Source: Saccharopolyspora gloriosae (lineage in GTDB: Bacteria; Actinomycetota; Actinomycetes; Mycobacteriales; Pseudonocardiaceae). From it: 64,000 nt of DNA. Position 1 is the first letter of the stretch; every line of letters starts with the position of its first letter. Shown here in pieces: positions 9,557 to 50,415 of the stretch. The DNA is taken from positions 2,527,470-2,591,469 of the forward strand of contig NZ_CP059557.1 of the NCBI RefSeq assembly GCF_022828475.1. The letters run 5' to 3'. The notes below the pieces were generated by a model. It did no database searches, was not told where the DNA came from, and saw only the letters and a program-made list of their open reading frames with translations. The translations under genes and the position numbers were made by a program.

Positions 9557-10288
9557 TCAGAACCGCCCCAGTAGCCGGTTCCCCGGCGCCTGCGGATCCG
9601 TGCTGGTGATGAAGTCGGTGACCCGGATCAGAGCTTCCTCGTACGTCATCCGGGCAGGGTCCGCGGTCCGCATCGCCGCCCAGGTCTGCTCGGCCTCGTC
9701 GTCGCTGAGTTCGACGATCTCGGTGCCGAGCCGCTTCGCATCCGCCTTGCTGATCAAGCCGATGTTGTCGGCGTCGAGCATGGCGAAGGTGAGGTTGGTG
9801 AGTACGCCGATGTAGAGCATGGTGGTGTCCGGCATCGTCGTGATCCTGTTGGCCATGACGGTGACGAACTGTTCGACGTCCAGGCTCTTGGGGTCGGGTA
9901 CGTCCACGGGGTTCTCGATGAGGGTCTGCCAGATTTCGTTGATCGCGGTCACCATCTGCCGCGCGCGAGGAGATCCGGGCGAATTCCCGGTGAGACCGGC
10001 AAAGCTGTTGGCGAGTCGTACCGTGTCGGCCGGGGTGACCACTCCGTCGCCATCGACGTCCAGAACTTCGAATCCCCGGATCTGCTTGCGGCGAAGCAGC
10101 GGATCCTGCCCAGTGTCGCCCTTGCCTGCGGCTACGGCTACGCCCCCGGAACCGGCTGTCACCGCTGCGACCGTGCTCGCCATGAGTCCGGCGGCGCCGC
10201 GCAGTACGCCTCGTCGAGCCAGGGCGGACGTCGAGGCTGATTCAGGGGTTGCGGTGGGGTTCTGGTTGCTTTCCAAAGCTGCTCCCAT
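9557..10288 (-). CDS. Exported EF-hand protein
   Basis: Residues 20-55 look like a twin-arginine signal (RRGVLRG, hydrophobic stretch, AVAA). The mature part has one canonical calcium loop, DVDGDGVVTPAD, a second partial loop (DADNIGLISKAD) and a third degenerate one near the C terminus. Such CaBP/calerythrin-like proteins bind calcium; a partner is not known. It is divergent from, and clearly paralogous to, the protein at 10690-11421 (shared LRRKQ, QFVTVMAN, FITSTDPQA/FIISTDPQA). The start is ATG 10288 or a GTG seven codons earlier; neither has a well-spaced ribosome site. Confidence 0.82.
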   Translation of the reverse strand: MGAALESNQNPTATPESASTSALARRGVLRGAAGLMASTVAAVTAGSGGVAVAAGKGDTGQDPLLRRKQIRGFEVLDVDGDGVVTPADTVRLANSFAGLTGNSPGSPRARQMVTAINEIWQTLIENPVDVPDPKSLDVEQFVTVMANRITTMPDTTMLYIGVLTNLTFAMLDADNIGLISKADAKRLGTEIVELSDDEAEQTWAAMRTADPARMTYEEALIRVTDFITSTDPQAPGNRLLGRF

Positions 10289-10689
10289 TTGATCGAATCG
10301 TCTGCGCACCTCCGGGGGGCGCGGACGCGATGTCGAGTGCGGCGAAGACTACCGACGCTGATCACGTCCATGAATGACTCCGCGCGTGCTTCACCAAAAA
10401 GGTGACAAGGAGGTCGCTGTTCACGAGGGCCGCCGGTGCAGGTCGGAAACGTGGCCATATCTCGCGCGACGTTGTTGATGAGCATCTTCAGCAAGCCATC
10501 CGGTCCGGCCGGACCGCAACGAATGCTGCTATTTATCCCACGCACGAGGCCATCGCAACCAACTGACATTGAAATAGCTCGATCGGATGTGGTTTGGCCT
10601 CGACGGCCCGGAACGCTGTTAGCGTCCCGAATGCAAGATCGCGAACGGCGTTTCTGTGCCGGTCACGCCGTGGACTCGAAAGGCTTGTG

Positions 10690-11421
10690 GTGGCTGAAGA
10701 ACCGACGAACGACGAAGCGACGGACGTGACCCGGAGATCGGTACTGCCTGGCACCGCGGGGCTGGCGGCAGGGGCCGTGTCCGGCATGGCGATGGCGGGC
10801 GGGGCGGAGGCCGCGCCGAAGCCGGACGCGGCGACCACGATCGCGGCCGCGGAGCGGCTGGCGGCATCCCAGGACTCGTACCTGCGGCGCAAGCAGCTGT
10901 GGATGTTCGAGGTGCTCGACGACGACGGCGACGGCGCGGTGACGCCCGCGGACACGATGCAGTTCGCGCACCGCCTGGCGCGGTTGACCGGGCACGCCGA
11001 GGACTCGCCGCGCGCGCAGCAGATGGAAGCGACGGTGAACCGGATCTGGCACGCGCTGGTGGTCAAGCCCGCCTGGGTGCCGGACCCGAAGCGGCTGGAC
11101 CGGGAGCAGTTCGTCACCGTGATGGCGAACAGCGTGGCGGAAACACCGGACAAGACGCTGCAGTACATCGGTGTGGTCACGAACCTGGCGTTCGCGATGG
11201 CGGACGAAGATCAGGACGGGCGGGTCACCCGCAACGACGGGATCCGACTCGTCACGGACGTGTTGCGCGTCGAACCGCAGCACGCCGAACACGCGTGGAC
11301 CGTGGTGGACGCCGACCAGAACGGGTACCTCGGGTACGCGGAGGTCTTGATGGCGGTGACCGACTTCATCATCAGCACGGACCCGCAGGCGCTCGGCAAC
11401 CTCGCGCTCGGTCGTATCTGA
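10690..11421 (+). CDS. Exported EF-hand protein, first gene of the Pfa-like operon
   Basis: The start is placed at GTG 10690 (10687 is equally possible), just before a Tat-like signal with TRRSVLPG and a hydrophobic stretch ending in GGAEA. Three EF-hand loops are readable in the mature part: DDDGDGAVTPAD, DEDQDGRVTRND and DADQNGYLGYAE, better preserved than in the divergent paralogue. The stop codon is only 4 nt upstream of the pfaD-like GTG, so it is very likely translated from the same transcript as the lipid synthase. Why an exported calcium-binding protein would be co-expressed with a cytosolic synthase is unknown. Confidence 0.83.
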   Translation: MAEEPTNDEATDVTRRSVLPGTAGLAAGAVSGMAMAGGAEAAPKPDAATTIAAAERLAASQDSYLRRKQLWMFEVLDDDGDGAVTPADTMQFAHRLARLTGHAEDSPRAQQMEATVNRIWHALVVKPAWVPDPKRLDREQFVTVMANSVAETPDKTLQYIGVVTNLAFAMADEDQDGRVTRNDGIRLVTDVLRVEPQHAEHAWTVVDADQNGYLGYAEVLMAVTDFIISTDPQALGNLALGRI

Positions 11422-11425
11422 CGCT

Positions 11426-12949
11426 GTGGCAGGAACATTCGGCGGCACCGGTCTCGTCGAACTCGCTCAGCGGGTGACGAGGCCGGCACACCTGGTGGCG
11501 CACGAGCGGGACGGTGCGCTGGGGCTCTCGGAACGGCCGGTTCCAGGCACCGTCGGCACGGTGCCCGCCATGTATCCGGAGTGGCTGGGCGACCAGCGTT
11601 TCACCGAGGCGCACGACGTGCGCTTTCCTTACGTCGCAGGGGAGATGGCGCACGGCATCGCGAGCGTCGAGCTGGTAGAGGCGATGGCGCGGGCGGAGAT
11701 GCTGGCGTTCTTCGGCGCGGCGGGACTCGGTCTGGAGCGGTTCGACCGGGATTTGGAGCGGTTGCGAACGCGTCTCACCGGGTGGAGGAACTGGGGCGTC
11801 AACCTGATCCACCGCCCCGACGATGCGGCCATGGAAGACGAAGTCGCGGTACGCCTCTTACGCGCGGGGGTACCGAAGATCTCGATGTCGGCGTTCCTGG
11901 ACATCACACCCGCGGTGGTGCGATGTGCGGCCTCCGGACTGCGGGCCGACGCGACGGGCCGGATCATCCGCAAGACCGCGGTGTTCGCCAAGGTTTCACG
12001 CCCCGAGACGGCCGAGCTGTTCCTGTCCCCACCCCCTCCCGGCCTGGTTCGCCGGCTCGTGGACAACGGTGACCTCACCGAGGAGGAGGGGCGGCTGGCC
12101 GTCCGGGTACCGGTGGCCGACGACATCACCGTCGAAGCGGACAGCGGTGGGCACACCGATGGCCGACCGCTGGTAGCCGTCCTGCCCGCGGTCCTTTCCC
12201 TGGCACGGCGGAAGAATCCGGCGGTGCGGGTGGGCGCGGCAGGCGGGCTCGGTGATCCGGCCGCAGTGGCGGCGGCGTTCGCACTCGGCGCGGCCTACGT
12301 CGTCACGGGATCGGTGAACCAGATGTCGGTCGAGGCCGCGGTCAGCGACGAGGCGAAGGCCATGCTCGCGCAGGCCGGGGTGGCGGACATGGCGATGGCG
12401 CCGGCGGGCGACATGTTCGAGCTCGGAGCCAAGGTCCAGGTTCTGCGCCGCGGAACCATGTTCGCCGGTCGGGCGGCCCGGCTGCGCCAGCTGTACGTCG
12501 AGCATCCGTCGCTGGAGTCGCTTGCTGCGGAGACCAGGAGCTCATTGGAGCGCGAGGTCTTCGGGACGGGTCTGGACGAGGTGTGGCGGCTGACCGAGCA
12601 GTACTGGTCGCAGCGTTGCCCGGCCGAGATGGTCCGGGCGCAGGCTGACCCGAAGCACAAGATGGCCCTGGTCTTCTGCTGGTACCTGGGCAATTCGGCC
12701 ACCTGGGCGGTCGAAGGTGCGCCGGGGCGCCGCAACGACTACCAGCTGTGGTGCGGCCCCGCCGCGGGCGCGTTCAACACCTGGGCCGCAGGCAGCTTCC
12801 TGGCCGAGCCCGGTGAGCGCACGGTCGCGCAGATCGCCCGCAACCTGCTCCAGGGAGCCGCGGTGCTCACCCGTGTGCACCAGCTCAGCACCTTCGGCGC
12901 TCGTCTTCCCGCGGACGCCTTCGATTTCCGGCCCCGCCCACTGGCTTGA
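11426..12949 (+). CDS. pfaD: PfaD-type trans-acting enoyl reductase
   Basis: A 507-residue FMN-dependent TIM-barrel protein of the PfaD family. It shows the diagnostic MAHGIAS, NWGVNLIHRP, VPKISMSAFLDITP and ADSGGHTDGRPL motifs, then GAAGGLGDPAAVAAAFALGA and a C-terminal NDYQLWCGPAAGAFNTW block. In polyunsaturated-fatty-acid synthases PfaD reduces the enoyl-ACP in trans. The GTG start is 4 nt after the EF-hand gene stop, and the next gene begins 12 nt after this stop, so all are in one operon. The length is close to standalone PfaD proteins of marine bacteria. Confidence 0.95.
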   Translation: MAGTFGGTGLVELAQRVTRPAHLVAHERDGALGLSERPVPGTVGTVPAMYPEWLGDQRFTEAHDVRFPYVAGEMAHGIASVELVEAMARAEMLAFFGAAGLGLERFDRDLERLRTRLTGWRNWGVNLIHRPDDAAMEDEVAVRLLRAGVPKISMSAFLDITPAVVRCAASGLRADATGRIIRKTAVFAKVSRPETAELFLSPPPPGLVRRLVDNGDLTEEEGRLAVRVPVADDITVEADSGGHTDGRPLVAVLPAVLSLARRKNPAVRVGAAGGLGDPAAVAAAFALGAAYVVTGSVNQMSVEAAVSDEAKAMLAQAGVADMAMAPAGDMFELGAKVQVLRRGTMFAGRAARLRQLYVEHPSLESLAAETRSSLEREVFGTGLDEVWRLTEQYWSQRCPAEMVRAQADPKHKMALVFCWYLGNSATWAVEGAPGRRNDYQLWCGPAAGAFNTWAAGSFLAEPGERTVAQIARNLLQGAAVLTRVHQLSTFGARLPADAFDFRPRPLA

Positions 12950-12961
12950 GGAAACGGCAGC

Positions 12962-15900
12962 ATGAACATCGACCACCGGATCGCGATCGTCGGCGTCAGC
13001 GCGATCATGCCGGGTGCACCGGACGTCGACGCGTTCTGGCGCAACGTCGTCGAGGGGCGCGACCTCATGACCGACGTCCCGGCCGACCGCTGGCTGGTCG
13101 AGGACTTCTACGACCCCGATCCGGACGCGCCGGACAAGACCTACGCCCGGCGCGGGGCGTTCCTGCCGGAGGTCGAGTTCGACCCGATGGCGCTGGGGGT
13201 GCCGCCCCGGAACCTGCCCGCGACCGACACCGCCCAGCTACTCGCCCTGGTCGTCGCCGAGCGCTTGCTGAGCGGCCTCGCCGACGCGGGGCTCGGCGAG
13301 GTCGACGGTGAGCGGGTCGGCGTTTTCGTCGGCTGCGCCTCCTTGCAGTTGCTCGGTGAGATGGCGACGCGGTCCGGGCGCCCGCAGTGGCGCCGGGCAC
13401 TGCTGGAGAGCGGTCTGTCCGAAGTGGATGCGGATGCCGTCTGCGACCGCATCGTCGACTACTCGGCACCGTGGCAGGAGGCGACCTTCCCCGGTTTGCT
13501 GAGCAACGTGGTCGCGGGCCGCGTCGCGAACCGCTTCGACCTGCACGGCGCCAACTTCACCGTGGACGCCGCGTGCGCGAGCTCCCTGGCCGCCCTGTCG
13601 GTCGCGGTCGACGACCTGCTGCTCGGCCGTTCCGACCTGGTGGTCACCGGTGGGGTCGACACGCTCAACGACCCGATGACCTTCCAGTGCTTCAGCAAGA
13701 CCCCGGCCCTGTCCCCGACCGGCGACTGCCGCCCGTTCGACGAGGACGCGGACGGCACGATGCTGGGGGAGGGCGTCGCGTTGTTCGCCCTGAAGCGCCT
13801 TTCCGATGCCGAACGGGACGGCGACCGGGTGCACGCCGTGATCCGCGGCATCGGGTCCTCTTCGGACGGTGGTGGCACCTCGGTGTACGCGCCGCTGGAG
13901 ACCGGGCAGGCGCGGGCGCTGCGCCGGGCGTACGCGACCGCCGGCTTCGGCCCGGAGACCGTCGGCCTGGTCGAGGCGCACGGCACCGGCACCGCCCCCG
14001 GTGACACGGCCGAATTGGCGGCCCTGCGCTCCGTGTTCGATGCGAGCGGACGGACCGACCGCCAGTGGTGCGCACTCGGGTCCGTGAAGTCCCAGATCGG
14101 CCATACCAAGGCCGCGGCGGGAGCGGCGGGCCTGCTCAAAACGACCTTGGCGCTGCGGCACAAGGTGCTGCCGCCGACGATCAAGGTCGACCGGCCGAAC
14201 CCCGCGCTTAACTTGGCCGACAGCCCCGTCTACCTGAACACGCGGGCACGGCCGTGGCTGAGCACGGCCGACCACCCGCGGCGGGCCTCGGTGTCCAGCT
14301 TCGGCTTCGGCGGCTCGAACTTCCACGTCGCGCTGGAGGAATACACCGGCGAAGCAGTCGGCTCGGCGCGCTGCGAGGCGCGGCCGGGGGAACTGGTGGT
14401 GCTGTCCGCCGCGTCACCGCAGGAGCTGTTCGAGCTCGACTCGTCCGGAAGTCTCACGGCGGTCGCCCGACGATCCCAAGAAGCCTTCCGCAGCACGCAG
14501 CAGCACCGGCTCGCGGTGGTCGCCTCGTCCGCTGAAGACCTCGCGCAGCAACTGGAGCAGGCGCGGGGTCTGGTCGGGGGGAAGCCGTTCTCGACGCCGA
14601 CGGGCATGCACTACGGCGTCGGGCGCGTTCCGGGCCGGATCGCGTTCCTCTTTCCCGGCCAAGGCGCGCAGTACGTCGGCATGGGGACCGACCTGGCGAT
14701 GCACTTCCCGCAGGCCCACGCGGTGTGGGACCGGCACGAGATCTCCCCGCTGGTGTTCCCGCCGCCGGTGTTCACCGATCCCGAACGGCAGGCGCAGCGA
14801 CGCGCGCTCACCGACACCGGTGCCGCGCAGCCTGCCATCGCCGCGCACAGCCTCGCGCTGCTGTCGGTGCTGGAAGCGGTGGGGGTGCGGCCGGATTGCG
14901 TTGCCGGGCACAGCTTCGGAGAGCTGGTGGCCCTGCACGCGGCGCGCGTGTTCGACGAGGACGCGCTGATGCGGCTCGCCGTGCGCCGGGGAGAGTTGAT
15001 GCGGGAGGGCTCCGGCGTCATGATCGCGCTGGAGGCGAGCACCGACGCGGTGACGGATCTCCTCGACCGCCAAGAGATCGGTGCGGCGTGGATCGCCAAC
15101 CACAACGGTCCGCGCCAGGTCGTGGTGGCCGCGACCGCCGAAGCGGGCGCGCGGGTGCGCGAGTGCGCCGCCGCGGCAGGGATGGCCGCGCGGACGCTCG
15201 ACACCTCGGCCGCCTTCCACAGTCGCCTCGTCGCATCGGCGACCGAGCCGCTGCAGGAGTTCCTGTCCGGGGAGACGGTTCGCGCGCCGCTGCTGGACGT
15301 GTACGGGAACGCGGCGGCAGCCGTGCATCCGGTGGAGCCGTCCGAGACCCGGCGGGCCGTCGCCGACCACGTCGCCTCGCCGGTTCGGTTCGCCGAGATG
15401 GTGCAGGCGATGCACGCCGACGATGTGCGGATCTTCCTGGAAGTGGGGCCGGGTGGTGCGTTGACCGGACTGGTCAAGGAGAACCTCCCCGATGCCCACG
15501 TGGTCGGCCTCGACCGCGCGGGCCGCAACGGGGTGACCGGACTGCTCGACGCGCTCGGACAGCTCTGCGCGCTCGGCGTCCCGCTCGACTGGGACGGGTT
15601 GTGGCACGGCCCGGCCAAGCCCGAGCCGGCGAAACCGGCGATGCCCGTGTTGATCAGCGGGGCCAACCACGGCAAGCGCTACCCGCCGAACCCGCAGTCA
15701 CCGCCGACCGTGCCCGCACCGGTGCTGTCCGGCGCCGCGTCCCGGGACGGCGAACCGCGGGAAGGCGGCGGCCTGGACGGCGACACGCTGCGCGCGGTCG
15801 CGCAAGCCCAGCAGGAGGTCGCCCGTGCGCACGCGGCGTACCTGAGCATGGCCGAGAAATCGATCGACGCGCTGGCATCGCTGGAACCAGCAGCGGACCA

Positions 15901-17695
15901 CGGCGCCGGACGAACTGCCGGGTCCCCGCCGGTCACCCGGGCCACTTACCAGCCCGCACCGTCCGGGCAACCGGCGATGCCCGGACAACCGGCGATGCCG
16001 GAACCACCCGAACCTGCCGTGCGGTCCGAATCGGTGTCGTCCTTGCCGGTCGCGCCGTCCCCACCAGCGGTCGTCGCGGCCTCGGATGCCGGTGCCGCGC
16101 GCGACGTCGGCGAACTGGAACCGCTGGTGCTGTCCGCCGTCGCCGAGAAGACCGGGTATCCGGTGGAGATCCTGGCACCGCACATGGAGCTGGAGGCCGA
16201 CCTCGGCCTGGACTCGATCACCCGGGCGCAGGTCCTCGCGGTCCTGCGTCCGATGTTCCCGCAACTGGAATCGATGGACCGGGAACGGCTCGCTCCGCTG
16301 CTGACGTTGCGCACGCTCGGCGAAGTCGCCGACAGCTTGCGGGGGCTGCTGGACGCACCCGTCGCCCCCGGCATCGCCGGACCCGACCAGACGATCCACC
16401 GGCACGTGCAGACCTTGCGGCGCTCGCCCGCGCCGGGCAGACCTGTGCGAGGCATCGGGAGCGTGCTGATCACCGACGACGGCTCCGGTATCGCCAAGGA
16501 GACCGCGCGGTTGCTCGGTGAGCGCGGCGTCCGCGCGCAGGTGGCCACCCCGGACGGCATCGCCGCACCGGATACCGACGGTGTGGTGTTCCTCGGGGGA
16601 CTGGCCGAGGTCGCTTCCGCCGACGATGCACTGGCCGTGCAGCGCGAAGCCTTCCGAACCGCACAGGCGATCGCGCCGCGGATGCGAGCCGAGGGCGGTG
16701 TGTTCGTCACGGTGCAGGACACCGGCGGCGGTTTCGGCCACCGCGATGGGCAGCGGCCCTGGCTCGGCGGCTTGGCCGCGCTGGCTCGAACCGTCCGCTG
16801 GGAGTGGCCGCTCGCCTCCGTCAAAGCGATCGATTGCCTGCGTGGTGATCGGTCGGCGGTCGAGGTCGCCGCCGCCGTCGTCGACGAACTGCTCGCCGGA
16901 GGACCCGACCTCGACGTCGCGCTCGACGCGGACGGGACACGGTGGACGCTCGGCCTCACCGAAGCGTCAGAACCGGTTGCGGCAGGGGACTTCGGTGCCG
17001 ACCCGGTGATCGTCGTGTCGGGCGGGACCGGGGCCGTCACGGCGGCGGCCCTGCGCGAGCTCGGCTCCCGTCACCGCGCGCGTTTCGTGCTGCTCGGGCG
17101 TGGCTCCGCCAGCGAGGTGGAGGGGCTGGACCAGGCCCACTACCTGCGGGTCGACGTCCGGGATGCCGAAGCGGTGCGGACTGCGCTCGCGGGCGTGCGG
17201 GCGCAGTGGGGTCCGATCACCGGCGTCATCCACGCGGCCGGGGTGCTGGCCGACCGGCGCCTGGAGGACAAGACCGAGGAGCAGTTCGATGCCGTGTTCG
17301 GCACCAAGGTCGATGGCCTGCGGGCGCTGCTGGCCGCTACCCGCGAGGACCCGTTGCGGCTGCTGTGCGTGTTCTCGTCGGTCGTCGCGGCGACCGGCAA
17401 CGCCGAGCAGTGCGATTACGCGATGGCGAACGAAACCCTCAACCACGTGCTCGCCGCCGAGCAGCACGTTCGGCCTGACGCGGTGGTCCGCTCGCTGCTG
17501 TGGGGGCCTTGGGAAGGCGGCATGGTCACGCCCGAGCTGGCCGAGGTGTTCCGGCTCGGTGGTGTCGACCTGATACCCCTCCACGCAGGAGCGAACGCTT
17601 TCGCCCGGGAATTGACCGCGACCACCGACGATCCTCGCGTGGTGATCACCGCCGGCCGCGCGCTGGCGCGACTCGGGGAGGTCGCCGATGGCTGA
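12962..17695 (+). CDS. Compact PfaA-like polyketide/fatty-acid synthase: KS-AT-ACP-KR
   Basis: A 1577-residue iterative-type PKS. KS spans about 1-450 with catalytic Cys205 (ACASSL), His340 (EAHGTGT) and His381 (GHTKAA). AT spans about 550-860 with GHSFGE, Ser651. A Pro-rich linker with repeated QPAMPG units precedes one ACP (LGLDSI, Ser1085). A PfaA-type ketoreductase follows from about 1335 to the end, with a GGTGAV nucleotide motif and a Tyr in CDYAMANE (1486). Canonical PfaA proteins carry five or more tandem ACPs; here there is one. There is no DH or TE domain, consistent with trans partners in the next two genes. It overlaps the following gene by 8 nt. Confidence 0.95.
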   Translation: MNIDHRIAIVGVSAIMPGAPDVDAFWRNVVEGRDLMTDVPADRWLVEDFYDPDPDAPDKTYARRGAFLPEVEFDPMALGVPPRNLPATDTAQLLALVVAERLLSGLADAGLGEVDGERVGVFVGCASLQLLGEMATRSGRPQWRRALLESGLSEVDADAVCDRIVDYSAPWQEATFPGLLSNVVAGRVANRFDLHGANFTVDAACASSLAALSVAVDDLLLGRSDLVVTGGVDTLNDPMTFQCFSKTPALSPTGDCRPFDEDADGTMLGEGVALFALKRLSDAERDGDRVHAVIRGIGSSSDGGGTSVYAPLETGQARALRRAYATAGFGPETVGLVEAHGTGTAPGDTAELAALRSVFDASGRTDRQWCALGSVKSQIGHTKAAAGAAGLLKTTLALRHKVLPPTIKVDRPNPALNLADSPVYLNTRARPWLSTADHPRRASVSSFGFGGSNFHVALEEYTGEAVGSARCEARPGELVVLSAASPQELFELDSSGSLTAVARRSQEAFRSTQQHRLAVVASSAEDLAQQLEQARGLVGGKPFSTPTGMHYGVGRVPGRIAFLFPGQGAQYVGMGTDLAMHFPQAHAVWDRHEISPLVFPPPVFTDPERQAQRRALTDTGAAQPAIAAHSLALLSVLEAVGVRPDCVAGHSFGELVALHAARVFDEDALMRLAVRRGELMREGSGVMIALEASTDAVTDLLDRQEIGAAWIANHNGPRQVVVAATAEAGARVRECAAAAGMAARTLDTSAAFHSRLVASATEPLQEFLSGETVRAPLLDVYGNAAAAVHPVEPSETRRAVADHVASPVRFAEMVQAMHADDVRIFLEVGPGGALTGLVKENLPDAHVVGLDRAGRNGVTGLLDALGQLCALGVPLDWDGLWHGPAKPEPAKPAMPVLISGANHGKRYPPNPQSPPTVPAPVLSGAASRDGEPREGGGLDGDTLRAVAQAQQEVARAHAAYLSMAEKSIDALASLEPAADHGAGRTAGSPPVTRATYQPAPSGQPAMPGQPAMPEPPEPAVRSESVSSLPVAPSPPAVVAASDAGAARDVGELEPLVLSAVAEKTGYPVEILAPHMELEADLGLDSITRAQVLAVLRPMFPQLESMDRERLAPLLTLRTLGEVADSLRGLLDAPVAPGIAGPDQTIHRHVQTLRRSPAPGRPVRGIGSVLITDDGSGIAKETARLLGERGVRAQVATPDGIAAPDTDGVVFLGGLAEVASADDALAVQREAFRTAQAIAPRMRAEGGVFVTVQDTGGGFGHRDGQRPWLGGLAALARTVRWEWPLASVKAIDCLRGDRSAVEVAAAVVDELLAGGPDLDVALDADGTRWTLGLTEASEPVAAGDFGADPVIVVSGGTGAVTAAALRELGSRHRARFVLLGRGSASEVEGLDQAHYLRVDVRDAEAVRTALAGVRAQWGPITGVIHAAGVLADRRLEDKTEEQFDAVFGTKVDGLRALLAATREDPLRLLCVFSSVVAATGNAEQCDYAMANETLNHVLAAEQHVRPDAVVRSLLWGPWEGGMVTPELAEVFRLGGVDLIPLHAGANAFARELTATTDDPRVVITAGRALARLGEVADG

Positions 17696-20600
17696 ACCGG
17701 ACGACTTCGAGGTCATGCCCCGCGCACCGCGGTCGCACCGGCTCGCACCCGCCCCGGCGAGCGCCGCGGAGCTGATCTCCGAACAGCTGCGGGTGGCCAC
17801 CGACCTCCACGAGCGCTTCCTCACCGGTCAGGCGAGTCCGCGCGCTCAACTCCCCGCGCCCGCAGACGAACCGGCCCGCTCGGCGCAGTCCGCGGTCGAT
17901 CTTGAGGGCTGGTACCTCGACCGGGCCGGCCGGATGATGGGCGCGGCGGTGCTGGACGAACTGCTGGCGGTGTGGCCGCAGCGCGAGGGCGCGTTCGACG
18001 GTGAACTCGTCTTCCACCACGCCCTGCCCGGACCGGGTGATCAGCTGCTCAGCTCGTTGACCGCCGGGGGAGCGACGTTGCAGGGCGTTGTGGACGGCTA
18101 TTTGTCGTTGCACGGCAGCCTGTCGAACGATCTCGACCTGAGCCTCCCGCCCGAGCGCCCGGGCGCGGCATTCGACGCCGACGCGGTCACGGCATTCGCC
18201 GAGGGGCGACCGGCCGACTGCTTCACCGGCCCGGAGTGGGAGCTCACGCGCGCCCACGTCCGAAGCCCCGGCCTCGGCTCGCGACGTGCCGTCCTCCTGC
18301 GCGAAGTCACCTCATTCGCTCCCGGCGAGGGGCTTACCGCGACCGGACGCGTCTCGCCGAAGGCGTGGCGGTCACCCGCTGTGCTGCTGGAAGGCGGGCT
18401 CCAGGCGATGGCGTTCCAGCTCGCCGCAACCGGCGCCACGATCCACCGCGACGGCTGGCGGTTCGAGCCGCTGCCGGAGGCACCCGTCCGCCTGCGCCTG
18501 CGATCGCTCCGCGACACTCCGGGCGGAACGCCCCGGTACCACCTCACCGTGCGGTCGCTGGTCGGCACGACCGCGCGAGCGGACGTGGTCTGCGCGATCG
18601 GCGACCAGGTGGTGCTCCGCGCCGAAGGACTCGCGGTCCACCTCGTCGCGGACACGCCCCTGGCGCACTGGAAGCTGCTCGGTCCACCCGCGGTCCAGCG
18701 CACCGGCGATCCTGTTCCGCAAAGCGCGCTCGGCGGCCTTCGCGGCCACGCGGACCCGGCGGCCGCGACCACGGGCCGGACTCGTCTCGACCATGCGGCG
18801 ATGCTCACCGCCGCATGGGGGGTGAGGACTGAGCTCTTCCCCGGTGCCGGCGACGACGCATTCCGGCTGCCAGGCCCGCCGTACCTGTTCATCACCCGGG
18901 TCACCGAGCTGTCGGCCGCATCAGGAAGCGTCCGGCCCGGCAGCCACCTGGTCGCCGAGTACGACGTTCCCGGACGCGTGTGGTTCCGCGAGCAGAGCGG
19001 GACGGTGCCGGTCGCGGTGCTCATGGAGGCCGCGCTGCAGCCCTGCGGCTTTCTGGCCGCCTTGATGGACGACGCAACGGCCGACGGGCAGCTGCGAATC
19101 CGCAACCTGGACGGCCGGCTGTCAACGGTCCGCGAAGTGTCCCCGGATGTCAGCTCGTTGCGCACCGCAGTCGAGTTCACCGGGCTGGATCGCTGGGACG
19201 GCACGGCGATCGAGACGTTCCGGGTCAGCTGCGAGGCCGACGGCGTCGTCGTGCTGGAAGGCACCCTGGTCTTCGCCGTGACACCCGTGGAGCGGTTGGC
19301 AGCCCAGACCGGTCTGCCTGCCACGGACGCGGACCGCGCCCGCCTCACCATGTTCTGCGGCCGACCCCGCATCGACCTGCGGTCCCGTCCCGCGCGTTAC
19401 TTCGGGCGTGCCGCCCGCCTGCCCGGCCCGATGCTGCAGATGCTCGACCGGCTGACCGGCTACTGGCCTGACGGGGGCTCCGCCGGGCTCGGGCGGCTGC
19501 GAGCCGAGTGCGACGTGCGGGCCGACGCCTGGTACTTCAAAGCGCACTTCTTCGGAGACCCGGTGCAGCCCGGTTCGCTCGGTGTCGAGGCGATGTGCCA
19601 GTTGCTGTCCTGCTACCTGATCGAGCGCGGTGTCGGCGACGGGTTCCGCTTCGAGCCCGTCGTCCCCGGCTCGTGGACCTACCGCGGCCAGGTCGTGCCG
19701 TCCGACGCACTCGTCACCATCGAACTGGACGTGCTGGGCGTCGAGTTGGGGTCCGGCGGCGGGCACGCGGAAGCCGAGGCTTGGCTGTGGGTGGACGACC
19801 GCAAGGTCTACCACGTGCCCCGCCTGCGGGTTCGCGTGCTTCCCGGCGCGCCGGATGCACCATCCACAGTGGACACCGTGCTGGATCCTCAGGCGGACGC
19901 TTGGCTGGCGGACCATTGTCCTACGTGGACGGTCCCTGCCGTGCCGCTGATGTCCACCGCCGACCTCCTCGCCCGATCCGCCGGAGACCGCGCCGGTCGC
20001 CGGGTACGAGAACTGCGCGACCTGAGCGTGCAGCGATGGCTTCCCGTCACCAGCGCGGTCCGGCTTCGCGCAACCTGCACCGGTGAGGAAGGACGGCTCG
20101 CGGTGTGGCACGAAGCGGGTCCGCTGTCCAGGTTCGTACCGGTGGCCACCACGACGGTGGGCTTCGAGCCGCCGACCCGCCCGGCTCGCTTCACCCCGCT
20201 GGCGGACCTCGCGGACGTGCCGGATCCGTACGAGAACGCGCACCTCTTCCACGGTCCGAGCTTCCAGTACCTGACGGCGCTGAGCATGGGTTCCACCGGT
20301 TCCAGCGGCGTCCTCGACGCCGACCACGGCTCGGTCCCCCGCGGTGCGCTGCACCAAGGACTGCTGGACGCCGCCTTGCACACCATCCCGCACAACGAAC
20401 TGCACCGGTGGGAGCCGGCCGTCGAACCCGGCCGGCTCGCGTTCCCGCACCGGCTGAACCACCTCGCCATGTTCGATCCGCTGCCGGACCACGGCGCAAT
20501 GGAAGTCGAAGCACGTTGCGCGGGCACGCTGCCGGACGATCTCGTCGCGATCGACATCCAGATGTGCCGGGGCGAACACGTGCTGGTCGCTTTCCAGGTC

Positions 20601-20936
20601 GTCGTCATGCACGTGGCGGCCGGGCCACTCGCCACGGTCTCCGCTGCCGAACGCCGGGCTTACCTGCGCGACGCCGTGCCCGACCCCCGCCTCCTGCTGA
20701 CCGGTTCGGACGGAGTGCTGAGAAGGCACGACGTGGAACGCAGCGACGCGTTGCCGGGCACCGCCAACGCCGTCTACGGCTTGCCCGCCGGCACCCGCGC
20801 CGCGGACTGGCTGCCGCACATCGCCGTCAAGGAGCACATCGCCCGAACCACCGGCGTTCACCCGCGCACCGTCGAGGTCACCAGCCTCGACAACGTCAGC
20901 TGGGACGACGACTCCGCCACCGTGAGGACCCCATGA
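17688..20936 (+). CDS. Multi-hotdog dehydratase protein, PfaC-like without KS/CLF
   Basis: A 1082-residue protein made of successive hotdog-fold units. Region 60-230 is a FabA-like unit; 290-520 has the MEAALQPCGFLAA signature of PfaC DH1; 570-700 has AHFFGDPVQPGSLG, with likely catalytic His620, and VEAMCQL; 750-1010 resembles a PKS dehydratase (ADHCPTWTVPAVPLM, then FHGPSFQYL and LLDAALH). The last 60 residues (HIAVKEHIARTTGVHP) resemble the KEA helix of phosphopantetheinyl transferases but look incomplete. PfaC normally begins with KS and chain-length-factor domains, which are absent here. It ends in an ATGA overlap with the next gene. Confidence 0.85.
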   Translation: MAEPDDFEVMPRAPRSHRLAPAPASAAELISEQLRVATDLHERFLTGQASPRAQLPAPADEPARSAQSAVDLEGWYLDRAGRMMGAAVLDELLAVWPQREGAFDGELVFHHALPGPGDQLLSSLTAGGATLQGVVDGYLSLHGSLSNDLDLSLPPERPGAAFDADAVTAFAEGRPADCFTGPEWELTRAHVRSPGLGSRRAVLLREVTSFAPGEGLTATGRVSPKAWRSPAVLLEGGLQAMAFQLAATGATIHRDGWRFEPLPEAPVRLRLRSLRDTPGGTPRYHLTVRSLVGTTARADVVCAIGDQVVLRAEGLAVHLVADTPLAHWKLLGPPAVQRTGDPVPQSALGGLRGHADPAAATTGRTRLDHAAMLTAAWGVRTELFPGAGDDAFRLPGPPYLFITRVTELSAASGSVRPGSHLVAEYDVPGRVWFREQSGTVPVAVLMEAALQPCGFLAALMDDATADGQLRIRNLDGRLSTVREVSPDVSSLRTAVEFTGLDRWDGTAIETFRVSCEADGVVVLEGTLVFAVTPVERLAAQTGLPATDADRARLTMFCGRPRIDLRSRPARYFGRAARLPGPMLQMLDRLTGYWPDGGSAGLGRLRAECDVRADAWYFKAHFFGDPVQPGSLGVEAMCQLLSCYLIERGVGDGFRFEPVVPGSWTYRGQVVPSDALVTIELDVLGVELGSGGGHAEAEAWLWVDDRKVYHVPRLRVRVLPGAPDAPSTVDTVLDPQADAWLADHCPTWTVPAVPLMSTADLLARSAGDRAGRRVRELRDLSVQRWLPVTSAVRLRATCTGEEGRLAVWHEAGPLSRFVPVATTTVGFEPPTRPARFTPLADLADVPDPYENAHLFHGPSFQYLTALSMGSTGSSGVLDADHGSVPRGALHQGLLDAALHTIPHNELHRWEPAVEPGRLAFPHRLNHLAMFDPLPDHGAMEVEARCAGTLPDDLVAIDIQMCRGEHVLVAFQVVVMHVAAGPLATVSAAERRAYLRDAVPDPRLLLTGSDGVLRRHDVERSDALPGTANAVYGLPAGTRAADWLPHIAVKEHIARTTGVHPRTVEVTSLDNVSWDDDSATVRTP

Positions 20937-21952
20937 TCCTGATCACCGGAGCCTCCGGTGCCGTCGGCTCCGCCCTGCTGCGCGAACTGCACGGCGTTGA
21001 CGAGGTCATCGCGCTCACCCACAACAAACCGGTCGACACCAGGTCCGCACGCGGCGACGTGACCCGGCCGTGGCTCGGGCTCCACCCGGCCGATTACCGC
21101 GATCTCGCGGCCAAGGTCGACGTGATCGTGCACTGCGCGGCGGCGGTGAACTTCTCGGCCTCGCACAAGCACCTGCACCGGGTCAACGTCGTCGGCACCG
21201 GCCACGTCCTGCGGTTCGCCGAGGACGCCGGCGCTCGCCTCGTGCACGGCTCCACGGCGTTCGTCGCTCGCGCGGGCGACGGAACTCCTTTTGATGCGTA
21301 CGCCGCCACCAAGGCCGCCGGTGAAACCCTGGTCCGCGAATCCGGTCTGCCCGCATGCATCGCCCGCATCTCCACCGTGATCGGTGACTCCCGCACCGGC
21401 GACATCCCGCGGCTGCAGGCATTCCACAATCTGCTCGGCTTCGCCCTGTCCGGCCGGCTTCCCTTCCTGCCTTGCACGCCCGGCACCCGCGTCGACTTCG
21501 TTCCTCGGGATGCCGTTGCCGGTGCACTAGCCGCGCTCGCCCACGACCACGACGCGCACGGCGAGCGCTGGATCACCGCCGGGCCGGCCGCCCTGCCGAT
21601 CGATCGTGTCATCGACATCGCTTGCGAGGCCGCTGCCGCCCGCACCGAGTACGACGAAGATCTGCGCGACATCGATCAGTCGGTCTTCCGCACCCGCCTC
21701 ATCGACCCCGCTGCTGCGACCACGGTCATCAACGCAGTCCTCGCCCGCACCTCCAGCTCCGCGACCCCCAGCATCATTCAGCGCGCCGCCGACCTGATGG
21801 CCGCTTTCGACGACGCCGAGCCGTTTCCCACGTCGCTGGGCCGAATCCCCTCCGGGCCACCTGTGCTCACCGCCGAATCGAGCGAAACCGCCCTGCGCCA
21901 CCAGATCGACCACCTCGCCGAACTGCCTCGGGAGACTTGGGAGTTTTCGTGA
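20933..21952 (+). CDS. Thioester-reductase-like extended SDR
   Basis: A 339-residue NAD(P)-dependent extended SDR of the male-sterility / thioester reductase type (NAD-binding 4). It has ITGASGAVGSALLREL at the N terminus, VIVHCAAAVNFSASH, a catalytic Tyr-X3-Lys in DAYAATKAAGE, and RVDFVPRDAVAGALAAL. ATG 20933 overlaps the stop of the preceding gene; an open frame that extends further upstream in the same phase is a shadow of that gene. The likely role is reductive release of the acyl chain as an aldehyde or alcohol, inferred from family and operon context; no ACP or thioesterase is present downstream. Confidence 0.88.
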   Translation: MILITGASGAVGSALLRELHGVDEVIALTHNKPVDTRSARGDVTRPWLGLHPADYRDLAAKVDVIVHCAAAVNFSASHKHLHRVNVVGTGHVLRFAEDAGARLVHGSTAFVARAGDGTPFDAYAATKAAGETLVRESGLPACIARISTVIGDSRTGDIPRLQAFHNLLGFALSGRLPFLPCTPGTRVDFVPRDAVAGALAALAHDHDAHGERWITAGPAALPIDRVIDIACEAAAARTEYDEDLRDIDQSVFRTRLIDPAAATTVINAVLARTSSSATPSIIQRAADLMAAFDDAEPFPTSLGRIPSGPPVLTAESSETALRHQIDHLAELPRETWEFS

Positions 21953-22629: not shown

Positions 22630-23503
22630 GAGCGTGTCTCGTTTGGATCTTGACCCGCCGTCCGGGATGATCGTCCATTGTGGTTGATGCGTTGTCGCGC
22701 CGGTTGGTTCCTGACGAGCTGTGGGAGCTGGTCGAGCCGTTGATTCCCGAGGTTAAGGACCGCCCGCAGGGTGGTGGTCGGGCGCCGGCGAACCCTCGGA
22801 TGGTGTTCACGGCGATCGTGTACGTGCTCACCAGCGGGTGCGCGTGGCGGTGGCTGCCGCCGTCGTTCGGCGTCAAGGTCCCGACCGCGCACCGGTGGTT
22901 CGTGCGCTGGACCGAAGCGGGCTTGTGGGCACGGATCCATCACGCGATGCTGGACGAGTTAGGTGGTCAGGGCTTGATCGACTGGTCCCGCGCGGTGGTT
23001 GGCGCCGCCCATGTTCGGGCGAAAAAAGGGGATCTATGACCGGTCCGAGCCCGGTCGATCGGGGCAAGCCTGGTTCGAAACTCCACATGCTCTCCGACGC
23101 TACCGGGCTGCCGATGGTCACCGGGATCTCGGCAGGCAACACGGCTGATGGTGACGCGATGATCCCGCTGGTCAACGCGATCCCGCCGGTCCGCTCCCGC
23201 CGCGGGCCGCGACGCCGCAAGCCCGCGAAGTTGCATGGCGACAAGGCCTACAACAGCCGCGCACGTCGCCGATGGTTGAGAGACAAGGGAATCCGACCCC
23301 GACTGGCCCGCAAGGACATCGAGCCCAAGGAACGCCTCGGCCGCCACCGGTGGGTCATCGAACGCTCCATGGCCTGGTTCACCGGCTACCGCCGCCTGAC
23401 CCTGCGCTACGAACGCCGCGCCGACACCTTCAAAGCCTTCCTCGCCCTGGCAGCCGCCCTCGTCTGCTTCAAACGACTCCAACACGCCAAGTGAGACGCG
23501 CTC
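22630..23503 (+). mobile_element. IS5-family (IS427-group) insertion sequence, complete
   Basis: The ends form an imperfect inverted repeat: GAGCGTGTCTCGTTTGG at the left (22630-22646) and, reading inwards from the right, GAGCGCGTCTCACTTGG (23487-23503), three mismatches in 17. A TTA trinucleotide flanks both ends (22627-22629 and 23504-23506), a target-site duplication of the size and type expected for IS427-group elements. The element is about 874 bp and holds one transposase split over two frames. A diverged, truncated relative is at about 32612-32808. Confidence 0.9.
22680..23494 (+). CDS. IS5/IS427-type transposase in two frames
   Basis: The first frame (22680-23039, 119 aa) has the N-terminal helical part (LWELVEPLIPE, TSGCAWRWLPP) and ends at TGA just after an A6 run. 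A -1 shift at the run (AAAAAAG at 23022-23028) joins it to the second frame, which supplies TGPSPVDRGKPGSK, the DDE-type region with HGDKAYNS, and the C-terminal HRWVIERSMAWFTGYRRL to the stop at 23492-23494. IS427-group transposases are commonly made by programmed frameshifting at such runs, so the element may be active. A simple sequencing error in the homopolymer would look the same. Confidence 0.88.
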
Positions 23504-23665: not shown

Positions 23666-24328
23666 GTGTCAGGGACGGATGTGGTCGCCGAAGGCGTGTC
23701 GGTGCGTGGGAACAGGGGGCCGGTTTTCGAGAACGTCTCGACCGCCGTCGAGGCGGGCGGCGTGCTGCTGGTTCGCGGCCCCTCCGGTTCCGGGCGGACT
23801 TCGCTGCTGCTCGCGCTTTCCGGCCGGATGCGGTTCGTCAGCGGAGCGGTGCGCGTCGGGGAGCACTTCCTGCCCGGTGATGCCGCCGCGGTTCGCGAGA
23901 CCGTGGCGCTCGCCCGCGCACCGGTGTGCGAATTGGAGGAGCGGCTGCGGGTCGACGACCTGATCGCCGAACGTCGCTGGATCGACCGGGTCGATTCCTC
24001 GGCCATCTGCGCTGCGTTCGAACTCGTCGGGGTCGACGTGCCGGGTCGAGCAGTGATCGAGGACCTGGACCCGGCGACGAACGTGTTGGTCGCCGTCGCG
24101 CTGGCGGTGGCGCGCGAGCCGGGGGCCGTGGTTGTCGACGAGCCGGACACCGGGTGCGGGCCGGACGGGCGTGCGCAGGTGTGGGGCGGCCTCGGCCGGG
24201 TGCGTGAATCCGGTACCACGTTGTTGCTCAGCACCACGGACTTCCCACCGTGCTTCCCGGACGCGGTACCGGTGGTGCTGCCGCAGCGCAGCGCGGACCG
24301 GCTGGCCAGTGCTGAACGCCCGAACTGA
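23666..24328 (+). CDS. ABC transporter ATPase-like protein, degenerate
   Basis: A 220-residue ABC-type nucleotide-binding protein. Walker A is intact (GPSGSGRTS) and Walker B reads AVVVDEPD. The usual LSGGQ signature is replaced by DLDPATNVL, and the switch His is not evident (LLLSTTDFPP). The GTG start at 23666 is preceded by a weak AGGG. It ends 20 nt before the YhgE/Pip-type membrane protein and pairs with it. Without the signature motif ATP hydrolysis would be weak or partner-dependent; that is inference. Confidence 0.8.
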   Translation: MSGTDVVAEGVSVRGNRGPVFENVSTAVEAGGVLLVRGPSGSGRTSLLLALSGRMRFVSGAVRVGEHFLPGDAAAVRETVALARAPVCELEERLRVDDLIAERRWIDRVDSSAICAAFELVGVDVPGRAVIEDLDPATNVLVAVALAVAREPGAVVVDEPDTGCGPDGRAQVWGGLGRVRESGTTLLLSTTDFPPCFPDAVPVVLPQRSADRLASAERPN

Positions 24329-24348
24329 AGCGGAGGATCGGTAGCCAC

Positions 24349-26292
24349 ATGACCGCCGTCAAACTGGCCCTGCTGGAGTTGCGCAGGTTCCGCGGCCCGC
24401 TGCGAAAACTGGTCCCGCCGCTGCTGTGCCTGATCCCGCTGCTGTACGGGGCCATGTACCTGTGGGCGAACTGGGATCCCTACGGCAAGCTCGACCGCAT
24501 TCCGGTCGCCGTGGTCAACCAGGACCACGTCGCGCACACCGCGCAGGGGCAGCGGGTCGACGCCGGGCGAGAAGTGCAGCAGCAGCTCAAAGCGGCCGGG
24601 ACGTTCCAGTGGAGCTTCACCGGCGAGGACGAGGCGCGGGACGGGCTGGAGCAGGGGCGCTACTACTTCACGATCACGATCCCGTCCGATTTCAGCGCGA
24701 AGCTCGCGACCGCGAGCAACACCGTGCCCGAGCAGGCCGGCATCGACATCCGGCTCAACGACGCGAACAACTACATCGCCGGGATCATGACGGAGGTCGT
24801 GCAGCCCCGACTTCAGGACCAGATCAACGCGGCGGCCCACGGCGCCTACGTGCGCAGCATCTACGGCGAGCTCTCCGACGTGAGGGACCGCTTGAGCGCG
24901 GCCTCCAACGGCGCGCACCGACTGCTCGGCGCCACCGAGGTGGCCCAGCAGGGAACCGGTTCGCTCGTCTCGGGGAGCGGCGCGCTGCACGACGGAGCGG
25001 GGCAGGTCAGCGACGGAGCCGCGCAGGTCGCCGAAGCCACCGGGCAGATCGACCAGGTCACCGGTGAGCTCAACCGGGCGGTCGCGGACCGGCTTCCCGC
25101 CGTCGCGGACGCGATGGTCGACACCGCCGCCGAGGTGGATCGCGGAACCGCCGCTGCGCACGCGGCCACCAGCGCGGTCAAGCAGGGCACCGAGCGCGGA
25201 ATGGCCGACTTGGACGAACTCGTGCGCGCTCGTCCCGAGCTGGCCGACGAGCCGATCGTGCAGCGGACGCGCGAGCACGCACGCGATCTCGACGCCCGCG
25301 CCGGCCGGGCGGATCAGGACGCGGCGCGCAGCCAGCAGGAGGCGGGCCAGGCGCTGGCCCGAGCGCAGGAAGCCCGCGACGACGTCGGGCAGGCCCAGCG
25401 CAAGGTTCTGGACGCGAACGTCCCGATCCGGCTAATCGACTCCGGAGCCCACTCCGTCGCGGAAGGATCCCGGACGATCACCACGGGTCTCGGCGCGCTG
25501 GAAGAGGGCTCCGGCACGATGCGGACCGCCGCGGATCAGGCCAACTCCGCGGCCGCGGACCTCACCCACACCGTGGACTCGGCGTTCGGCCGCATTCCGG
25601 CGACCAACTCCGACCAGGTCACCGAGGCCGCGCGGGTGCTGGGCACCCCAGTGCGCATCGATCGGGAGAATCTGAACCCGGCCGGGCCTTACGGCCGAGG
25701 TTTCGCGCCGTTCTTCTTCAGCATCGCGCTGTGGGTGTTCGGGCTGTTCGCGTTCCTGCTGCTGCGGCCGGTGAACCTGCGCGCCCTGGCCGGACGCGCC
25801 GGCTCGTTCACCATCGCGGTCGCCGGATGGATGCCGGCGGCGATCCTGGGCGGCCTCGGAGCGCTGATCCTCTACGCCGTGGTGGACCTCGGGTTGGGGC
25901 TGGCGCCGCGGCACGCGATCGCGTGCGTGCTGCTGATGCTGGTCGGGATCGCGGCGTTCACGGCGATCGACCACTTCCTGCGCACCGCTCTCGGCGTACC
26001 GGGAGACGTGGTGTCACTGGTCCTGCTGGTGCTCCAGCTGACCTCCTCGGGCGGGCTGTACCCGATGCCCACCACACCGGTGTTCTTCCAAGCGCTCAAC
26101 CCCCTGCTGCCGATGACCTACCTCGTCGACGGGCTGCGGGTAACGATCTCCGGAGGACTCGCGGAACACCTGGTGCGGGACTTCGCGGTGCTGGGCGGGT
26201 TCCTGGTGGTGTTCCTACTGGCGACAACGCTGGTGGTGCGTAGGCAGCGAATGTGGACGGTCTCCCGGCTGCACCCGGATGTCGTGTTGTGA
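24349..26292 (+). CDS. YhgE/Pip-type ABC-2 membrane protein
   Basis: A 647-residue Pip-family protein. One N-terminal membrane segment (PPLLCLIPLLYGAMYLW) leads into the family motif KLDRIPVAVVNQD. A long extracytoplasmic region follows (about residues 60-440), rich in Ala, Gln and Glu and likely coiled coil in 280-350. At least five C-terminal membrane segments begin at GYGRGFAPFFFSIALW-like sequence around residue 447. Relatives include the phage-infection protein Pip and type VII accessory EsaA-like proteins; they are thought to export substrates with an ATPase. It follows the ATPase gene by 20 nt. Confidence 0.87.
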   Translation: MTAVKLALLELRRFRGPLRKLVPPLLCLIPLLYGAMYLWANWDPYGKLDRIPVAVVNQDHVAHTAQGQRVDAGREVQQQLKAAGTFQWSFTGEDEARDGLEQGRYYFTITIPSDFSAKLATASNTVPEQAGIDIRLNDANNYIAGIMTEVVQPRLQDQINAAAHGAYVRSIYGELSDVRDRLSAASNGAHRLLGATEVAQQGTGSLVSGSGALHDGAGQVSDGAAQVAEATGQIDQVTGELNRAVADRLPAVADAMVDTAAEVDRGTAAAHAATSAVKQGTERGMADLDELVRARPELADEPIVQRTREHARDLDARAGRADQDAARSQQEAGQALARAQEARDDVGQAQRKVLDANVPIRLIDSGAHSVAEGSRTITTGLGALEEGSGTMRTAADQANSAAADLTHTVDSAFGRIPATNSDQVTEAARVLGTPVRIDRENLNPAGPYGRGFAPFFFSIALWVFGLFAFLLLRPVNLRALAGRAGSFTIAVAGWMPAAILGGLGALILYAVVDLGLGLAPRHAIACVLLMLVGIAAFTAIDHFLRTALGVPGDVVSLVLLVLQLTSSGGLYPMPTTPVFFQALNPLLPMTYLVDGLRVTISGGLAEHLVRDFAVLGGFLVVFLLATTLVVRRQRMWTVSRLHPDVVL

Positions 26293-32808: not shown

Positions 32809-33184
32809 GGTCGGCCGCTGGTTCCTGCTGAGCGTCGAGATCTTGCAGATCGTGCTGGTCCCGCCGAGTGCGAACGACAGCTGCTTGGATCAGGGCTTTC
32901 GACTTCCCCGGTGGTGCGGTTCGGCCTGTCGAGCGACGAGTCGCGCAGCGGAGCGACGTGCCGGCCCGGCGCCCGCACGAGCGGGCTCCATCCGCACCAC
33001 AGGTCAAGCTGCTCCGCTGAGTCGGGCACCTTCCCGCAGTTTCTTGTACCGCGGCGTAACAGCGGCACGCTTTCCGGAACCGCTTGTTTTTCCGGATGTC
33101 GTCGTTCGGAAACAGCCGGTCGTTGGAATGGTTCTCATCGGCAGCGACGAGGTTCCGCCTCGTCTTCCCGCTACTGGAGGACCG

Positions 33185-33484
33185 ATGCCAGAGATGCGGT
33201 TTCGAGTGCGTTGGCCGGACGGTGCGGTCCAGCAGTGCTACTCGCCATCCACGATCATCGAAGATTACTTCGAGGTCGGTCGTACCTACGAGGTCACCGA
33301 CTTCGTCGAACGCAGCAGGCAGGCGCTTCGGATCGCCGACGAACGGGTGCGGGCGAAGTTCGGCTTCGGCTGCACCGCTGCCGAAGGGCAGCTGGCCGAG
33401 ATCAACGCGACCGCCCGCGAACACCCGTCCGATGGGCGGGTCGTCGTCGAGGCGATGCACTCCCCTGCGGGGAGGCGGCGATGA
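33185..33484 (+). CDS. MSMEG_0570 family protein (Nit1C cluster, NitG-like)
   Basis: A 99-residue protein with the family signature [13 protein letters not shown], then QCYSPSTII and [19 protein letters not shown]. Members occur almost only in Nit1C nitrilase clusters, are induced by nitrogen starvation in some hosts, and have no known activity. ATG 33185 has GGAGG 5 nt upstream; the reading frame is open further 5' into IS sequence, which is coincidental. Its stop overlaps the start of the flavoprotein gene (ATGA), so it is the first gene of the operon. Confidence 0.92.
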
Positions 33485-34791: not shown

Positions 34792-34799
34792 GGTGAGCA

Positions 34800-35627: not shown

Positions 35628-35653
35628 AAAACACCTTGATCAGAGGAGAAATC

Positions 35654-36175: not shown

Positions 36176-36316
36176 GCCGCTGTTCCGAAGTTCTCATCCC
36201 GGAATTCGCCGCAGCGCGCGGTGGTGCCGTCCGCGCACCCGCCTCGGACTTCGGTTCGACCGCGGGTGCCGGGCGCCGCGTGCGGGGGGATCGCAGGTTT
36301 TTCATGGAGGTGTGTC

Positions 36317-50391: not shown

Positions 50392-50415
50392 ACCGACTAC
50401 ACGAGGAAGAGGATA

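Follow-up and report, generated by a model that had tools for sequence, protein, structure and literature searches.

The 64,000-nucleotide stretch of the Saccharopolyspora gloriosae genome analyzed here (the window; positions 2527470-2591469 of a genome of 6.88 Mb in one contig) carries a real and conserved variant of the Pfa-like secondary-lipid synthases. Three parts are jointly gone from it, the ketosynthase/chain-length factor (KS/CLF), the PfaB-type acyltransferase (AT) and one FabA-type dehydratase (DH) site, and two others, a stand-alone reductase and an EF-hand protein, are jointly present. On balance, we favor the reading that this is a self-contained, Pfa-derived iterative synthase with a single KS, from which a short-chain dehydrogenase/reductase (SDR) would release the chain reductively as an aldehyde or alcohol of up to about C20. 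A first-pass annotation, made from the letters of the window, had described four genes of a Pfa-type synthase. All four and their domains are borne out, but the unit has a fifth, the EF-hand gene, that had been overlooked. The five genes are tightly packed on the plus strand and span only about 11 kb; they are listed here with the nearest flanking element:

10594..11421, plus strand: EF-hand (calerythrin-like) protein, from the Pfam EF-hand match, PDB matches and linkage in 8/8 cassettes
11426..12949, plus strand: PfaD-type trans-acting enoyl reductase, from a TIGR02814 score above cut-off
12962..17695, plus strand: ketosynthase-acyltransferase-acyl carrier protein-ketoreductase (KS-AT-ACP-KR), PfaA-like, with one ACP, from Pfam, TIGR02813 and motifs
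17688..20936, plus strand: multi-hotdog dehydratase protein with no KS, CLF, AT or ACP, from Pfam and alignment
20933..21952, plus strand: stand-alone SDR of the thioester-reductase (NAD_binding_4) superfamily, 339 aa, the proposed release enzyme, from Pfam
22680..23039, plus strand: IS4/5-type transposase fragment, in the flank and not part of the cassette, from PF13340 (88.3 bits)

From these coordinates, the EF-hand and PfaD genes are separated by 4 bases and the PfaD and KS genes by 12; the KS and DH frames overlap by 8 bases, and the DH and SDR frames by 4. The SDR start is the ATG at 20933, not 20105.

The same unit recurs elsewhere. The dehydratase protein served as the query for a pattern-based scan of the 84,980 species in the GTDB collection, and the best 80 of 93 confirmed stretches, comprising 78 loci, were compared. 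All five genes are found in the same order in seven of the 78 (L022-L028), which belong to Saccharopolyspora sp. HNM0986 (the nearest named relative with the cassette), four Actinopolyspora, Streptomyces cellostaticus and S. noursei; with the window, this makes eight genomes. The dehydratase proteins of the seven loci are 72-88% identical to that of the window, and recurrence of the five-gene set at this level is not chance. The unit is thus one gene larger than first annotated, and its self-contained and spread nature had escaped notice. The ratio of nonsynonymous to synonymous substitution rates (dN/dS), by simple NG86 estimates against three genomes, is 0.12-0.37 in all five genes, each of which is, by this measure, under purifying selection. 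Among 150 sampled genomes of the family, 26 match the dehydratase protein at 1e-20, and five (the window's counted) do so over nearly the whole protein with 78-100% identity. Among 394 sampled genomes of the class, 21 match at 1e-30, and identity above 49% is seen only in the window's own.

Assignment of the synthase to the Pfa type, as first annotated, is supported by both curated models: PfaD scores 575.6 bits against TIGR02814 (cut-off 449.25) and the KS protein 1083.2 bits against the PfaA model TIGR02813 (cut-off 1010.1). PfaD has 507 aa and no aminotransferase match in Pfam. In the KS protein, Pfam identifies KS, AT, one PP-binding stretch and KR. The tandem ACPs of PUFA (polyunsaturated fatty acid) synthases are absent, and a single L[GA]xDS motif is found in the KS-protein frames of all eight cassettes, in keeping with the one ACP originally called. 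The KS Cys-His-His triad is intact in 8/8; the AT motif GHSFG, the ACP motif LGLDSI and the KR Ser and Tyr were seen in the KS protein, and the AT, ACP and KR motifs are kept in all eight. No match to a phosphopantetheinyl transferase (PPTase) was found by Pfam in the KS or dehydratase protein.

The domain search that had been proposed for the large proteins also covered the dehydratase protein, which is multi-hotdog in character as judged from the alignment and Pfam. It scores 142.5 bits against FabA in two stretches, with PKS_DH_N and PS-DH matches below cut-off, and yields no KS, AT or ACP match at an E value of 0.1, so that the early call of no KS/CLF in this protein stands. A phmmer search of the cassettes gave no second AT (no search was aimed at remote ones in the rest of the genome), and the PfaB-type second acyltransferase of Pfa/PUFA synthases is accordingly missing from the cassette. 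No cassette protein has a thioesterase match in Pfam.

The first FabA-type region of the dehydratase protein is a remnant lacking the active-site loop. Its His loop (GHFxNDPCMPGT in relatives) is absent from 8/8 cassettes and kept in 31 of 33 other rows (the exceptions being L008 and L010), while 8/8 cassette proteins also lack, and 32 of the 33 retain, the partner region's acid-bearing segment, on patterns written after viewing the alignment and with near-copies among the non-cassette rows. The His and acid residues of FabA are catalytic. In PUFA synthases, mutation of the acid residue in the DH domains likewise supports a catalytic role, in the portion of the study available (PMC9667614). 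The residues of the second FabA-type site (DH3) and of the polyketide synthase (PKS)-type DH (PS-DH) are present in 8/8. Where Pfa/PUFA synthases have two active FabA sites, then, the first motif is found in none of the eight cassettes and the second in all. Neither this reduction nor the lack of a PfaB-type AT had been noted in the first-pass annotation. By Pfam, the cassette protein has two FabA stretches versus three to four in eight relatives, although the E limits differed.

A KS-CLF didomain of the PfaC type is absent from the dehydratase protein, and a CLF could still be encoded elsewhere. To look for one, the CLF of the Saccharopolyspora relative L053 was used as a query in ten genomes, including five of the eight with a cassette: G000, G046, G117, G038 and G097 (G046, G038, G117 and G097 apparently being the genomes of L022, L025, L027 and L024, respectively). 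No Pfa-type CLF was found in these five, where the top match in each genome reached 26.6-39.3 bits and covered part of the query. In contrast, the four positive controls were recovered: G112 at 868 bits (94% identical and nearly the query itself), G272 at 317, G031 at 275, and G511 at 214 and 145 in two pieces. The tenth genome, G147, matched only in the stretch after the CLF (84 bits), adjoining its dehydratase domains. An authentic KS/CLF outside the window, one of the findings that the first-pass annotation had named as refuting it, did not turn up: no Pfa-type CLF was found elsewhere in the one-contig genome.

The remaining catalytic component is the SDR. It scores 119.9 bits against NAD_binding_4 (PF07993; cut-off 20.1), which upholds the thioester-reductase superfamily first assigned to it. 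Residues S107/T108, Y123 and K127, which we take to be the catalytic residues, are invariant in nine sequences. By sequence, the best match among solved structures is MxaA (4u7w, 1.5e-12), and a carboxylic acid reductase is matched as well. Outside the cassettes, its best match in the sample of 150 family genomes shares 40% identity with it across 236 residues.

The fifth gene encodes a protein with a PF00036 match of 40.2 bits and PDB matches to 3aka (1e-10) and calerythrin (1nya, 8.1e-10), and on these matches it resembles calerythrin and the sarcoplasmic calcium-binding proteins. Alignment of the orthologues suggests that the true start is probably a GTG near 10687-10690. The gene is linked in all eight cassettes, and no EF-hand match was found in the other, non-cassette Pfa-like loci searched. 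A twin-arginine-like RR is present in five of the eight proteins; it reads RG in three Actinopolyspora, making export doubtful. A divergent paralogue, 45% identical to the cassette's EF-hand protein, is encoded at 9557-10309 on the minus strand, and one is also found in L022 at 707-1456.

In the mechanism we propose, the AT would put malonyl on the single ACP, and the lone PfaA-type KS, as a homodimer, would start and extend the chain in all rounds. The beta carbon would be processed by the KR, by the PKS-type DH or the remaining FabA-type DH, and by the separate PfaD. In PUFA synthases, the PfaA KS builds most of the chain, and the accessible text of one study has the KS-CLF of PfaC performing the final elongation and PfaB a late acyl transfer, perhaps off-loading (PMC12895367). 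Here, the SDR would replace termination by KS-CLF and PfaB, by reducing the acyl-ACP thioester with NAD(P)H; this would yield an aldehyde or, if a second hydride is transferred, an alcohol. The KS_A domains of PUFA synthases act on C2, C4, C6, C10, C16 and C18, and KS-CLF on C10 and C20, as far as the source is accessible (PMC9702510). With C18 as the upper limit for substrates of known KS_A domains, we expect a chain of at most about C20, with few or no double bonds. The EF-hand protein would be a conserved accessory. We think it improbable that the scheme extends to a bolder form, in which chain length is dictated solely by the homodimeric KS, without CLF or PfaB, the synthase has shed its first FabA isomerase site, the thioester reductase (TR) is a length-selective terminator, the whole is mobile, and the EF-hand protein binds or gates the aldehyde or alcohol by calcium.

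Several observations tell against the proposed mechanism. Since KS-CLF also serves C10, a lone KS would need broader specificity, or the chain would stop early. Three related loci (L029, L030 and L113, described below) have no KS in the dehydratase protein and no clear linked TR, so absence of the KS alone is not diagnostic. The EF-hand gene, which is the strangest part of the unit, does not fit into the mechanism. The flanks of the cassettes have no PPTase, alcohol dehydrogenase or transporter in common. The remaining points concern the SDR, which scores 103.6 bits against the thioester reductase model TIGR01746, below the cut-off of 213.35, is shorter than MxaA between the Rossmann and GD motifs, and has a poor AlphaFold model (pLDDT 40.5) that lends no support. 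It could act on another substrate. Given the score under the curated cut-off, we regard reductive release as likely and not more.

The strongest alternative follows from these last points: the SDR may act on the completed lipid or on a partner metabolite, reducing a keto or aldehyde group there, while the chain leaves the ACP by hydrolysis or by transfer to a different acceptor. Besides the low TIGR01746 score and the shortened N-terminal segment, further matches to epimerase-like SDRs speak for it. However, the best matches are to NAD_binding_4, the thioester-reductase families, MxaA and carboxylic acid reductase, the SDR is linked in 8/8 cassettes, and the cassette proteins offer no thioesterase match for a hydrolytic route. 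We hold this alternative to be possible, at somewhat under half the likelihood of reductive release from the cassette.

A slightly less probable alternative, still to be reckoned with, is that each host has its own partner (glycolipid, peptide or PKS) to receive the acyl chain and that the product varies accordingly from host to host. According to the accessible parts of two reports, other assembly lines can be supplied by secondary-lipid synthases (PMC13291983, PMC3098273), and in the window genes for an ABC transporter ATPase and an ABC2-type permease lie downstream of the cassette at 23666-26292, a pair absent from the flanks of the other cassette loci. Nevertheless, comparison of the predicted genes in the flanks of all eight loci (at most 10 kb, shorter for L023) revealed no neighboring gene that all three genera share, and no common partner. 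Some flank genes are shared within genera: the EF-hand paralogue by the two Saccharopolyspora, a few genes by two Actinopolyspora, and a few by the two Streptomyces.

It is unlikely that a KS/CLF or ACP is supplied in trans from another locus, which would mean that the synthase is not truly minimal. The window genome does have 29 KS-like matches to a KS-CLF query, and in genus g28, an independent KS gene and a small open reading frame (ORF) resembling an ACP adjoin the KS-less dehydratase gene. Against this, the search described above gave no Pfa-type CLF in five of the eight cassette genomes, and the three genera that carry the cassette have no KS gene common to their flanks.

Relative to the window, S. 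noursei has 78% identity in RpoB, 81% in the KS protein and 83% in PfaD; identities of the KS protein and PfaD above that of RpoB point to transfer of the cassette between orders. Actinopolyspora mortivallis, with 91% in RpoB and 80% in the KS protein, is compatible with descent. The cassette is apparently mobile, and the IS4/5-type transposase fragment lies 0.7 kb downstream of it in the window. No close plasmid copy was found (10 records, all under 60% identity), nor any phage match to the PfaD gene DNA, and promoter-like and terminator-like sites showed no excess over shuffles.

A congener retains part of the unit. In L115 (G079 C1:5332000-5349000), the stretch 10079-12920 holds a C-terminal part of the dehydratase gene in two overlapping frames and an uninterrupted SDR frame; the two dehydratase pieces are 76% and 68% identical, and no KS-protein, PfaD or EF-hand match was found in the 17 kb. 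From its frames, this locus is a decaying cassette. That the cassette as a whole is a degenerate Pfa locus without function, as its missing KS/CLF, AT and DH site and this congener might suggest, is very improbable in view of the dN/dS values of all five genes and the presence of the other catalytic motifs checked in 8/8.

Elsewhere in the window, genes for an FAD oxidoreductase, an amidohydrolase, a radical SAM protein, a GNAT-AIRS fusion and a glycosyltransferase (Pfam) lie on one strand at 32911-41622, a set that we take to resemble the MSMEG_0565-0572 type of cluster of actinobacteria. At 49255-52727, two CoA-transferase family III genes stand on either side of an acyl-CoA dehydrogenase gene, in a stretch whose GC (0.60-0.62) is below that of most of the window.

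The rules by which PUFA-type synthases count rounds and place double bonds are not fully understood, as the consulted part of one account has it (PMC13291983). A small conserved set that lacks KS-CLF, PfaB and one DH site is a natural loss-of-parts experiment, and its layout would allow testing of which parts such synthases need; its size of only about 11 kb would permit expression in one piece. Should the product prove to be a defined aldehyde or alcohol, the cassette would also offer a compact route to fatty alcohols.

Among known systems, enediyne PKSs are single chains of KS-AT-ACP-KR-DH-PPTase. The cassette differs from them in having the DH on a separate protein and no PPTase match in the KS or dehydratase protein. 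Its nearest neighbors in the KS and DH trees are the actinomycete one-ACP Pfa-like synthases of Saccharopolyspora spinosa, Virgisporangium, Allokutzneria and others; the cassette branch of the KS tree (SH-aLRT 100) is nested in an actinomycete group of 17 rows (SH-aLRT 99). These synthases share with it the single ACP and the order of FabA-type regions. Unlike the cassette, the five proteins scanned carry KS-CLF and three to four FabA stretches, and four of the five have an AT (one below cut-off) where the cassette dehydratase protein has none; no EF-hand gene or clear TR is nearby, and PS-DH follows in 4/10 loci. One match to the window's ACP was found in 15/15 actinomycete loci outside mycobacteria in which the ACP region was covered (L029-L031, L047, L049, L050, L053, L054, L056, L058, L111-L114 and L116), though a divergent ACP could escape; Mycolicibacter loci complete at the ACP region have two to three. 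The contrast first drawn with tandem-ACP PUFA synthases therefore names a real absence in the cassette but misdescribes its nearest relatives, in which one ACP is usual.

Nor is the missing KS/CLF special to the cassette, as had been supposed. The dehydratase proteins of Saccharothrix tamanrassetensis (L029), Actinoalloteichus caeruleus (L030) and genus g28 (L113) also lack it, which rules out the reading that every distant relative keeps KS and CLF. These three differ from the cassette in keeping an AT match. In the dehydratase proteins of eight relatives, that match is above cut-off in L029, L113, L053, L112 and L114, below it in L030 and L049, and lacking in L111. The first FabA-type His is kept in L029 and L030 and lost in g28 (row L008). 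Genome G023, apparently that of L030, has among the matches listed one of 155 bits elsewhere (query 185-684, part of KS and CLF) and may hold a KS-CLF-like protein there. The KS-less dehydratase gene of g28 (L113, 13162-17501) precedes a small ORF, a KS gene standing by itself, an SDR gene and one more; by eye, the small ORF looks like an ACP and the last gene like an HMG-CoA synthase, so that this looks like a different KS-less Pfa variant. Weak matches to the cassette SDR were limited to two of the other loci, L088 (30.0 bits) and L030 (24.8 bits), the former in a 359-aa frame at 14038-15117 close to a Pfa-like locus in a genome of the Hyphomonadaceae. By parsimony, KS/CLF loss takes four changes on both a 95-row and a 36-row DH tree (bootstrap 4-4 on the latter), with 26 of the 95 rows lacking a KS state (the locus being truncated or the state not assessable), those of L009, L016, L100 and L101 set by hand from longer loci, and the duplicates L001-L006 dropped beforehand. 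With a weak backbone in which well-supported branches force only one change, the number of losses is unsettled.

Related departures from the PUFA pattern are on record. A survey by Shulse and Allen distinguishes 20 types, actinobacterial ones included, in the part consulted (PMC3098273). Cyanobacterial clade II PfaBC proteins lack CLF and those of Ottowia lack KS-CLF, like the cassette; by description, they are set apart by their AT and linked PKS and nonribosomal peptide synthetase (NRPS) genes, as given in the text available (PMC13291983). The heterocyst glycolipid synthase (hgl) has Pfa-like genes, and a figure legend lists a thioester reductase for it, as proposed here, but also a CLF (PMC11804610). 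A thioester reductase stands beside Pfa genes for the Xenorhabdus polyamines as well, in the accessible description (PMC9113149). We found no product for, or description of, the five-gene combination in the open-licence PMC literature, and no precedent there for an EF-hand link to Pfa-like synthases. A close counterpart is the zeamine/fabclavine synthase (Zmn10-14, FclC-G), which, as described in the available parts of the reports, shares with the cassette a one-ACP PfaA-like protein (Zmn10), PfaD, no PfaB and a stand-alone TR (PMC3547906, PMC9113149). Release by the thioester reductase has already been proposed for zeamine (PMC3547906), so that this trait, too, is not the novelty it was first taken for. 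By the same description, the two systems part in the KS and CLF of Zmn11, the aminotransferase of Zmn12 and the linked NRPS/PKS genes, none of which has a counterpart in the cassette, whose PfaD has no fused aminotransferase and whose Zmn11 homologue has no KS-CLF. Taken singly, then, the traits of the cassette have precedents in known systems, the EF-hand link excepted.

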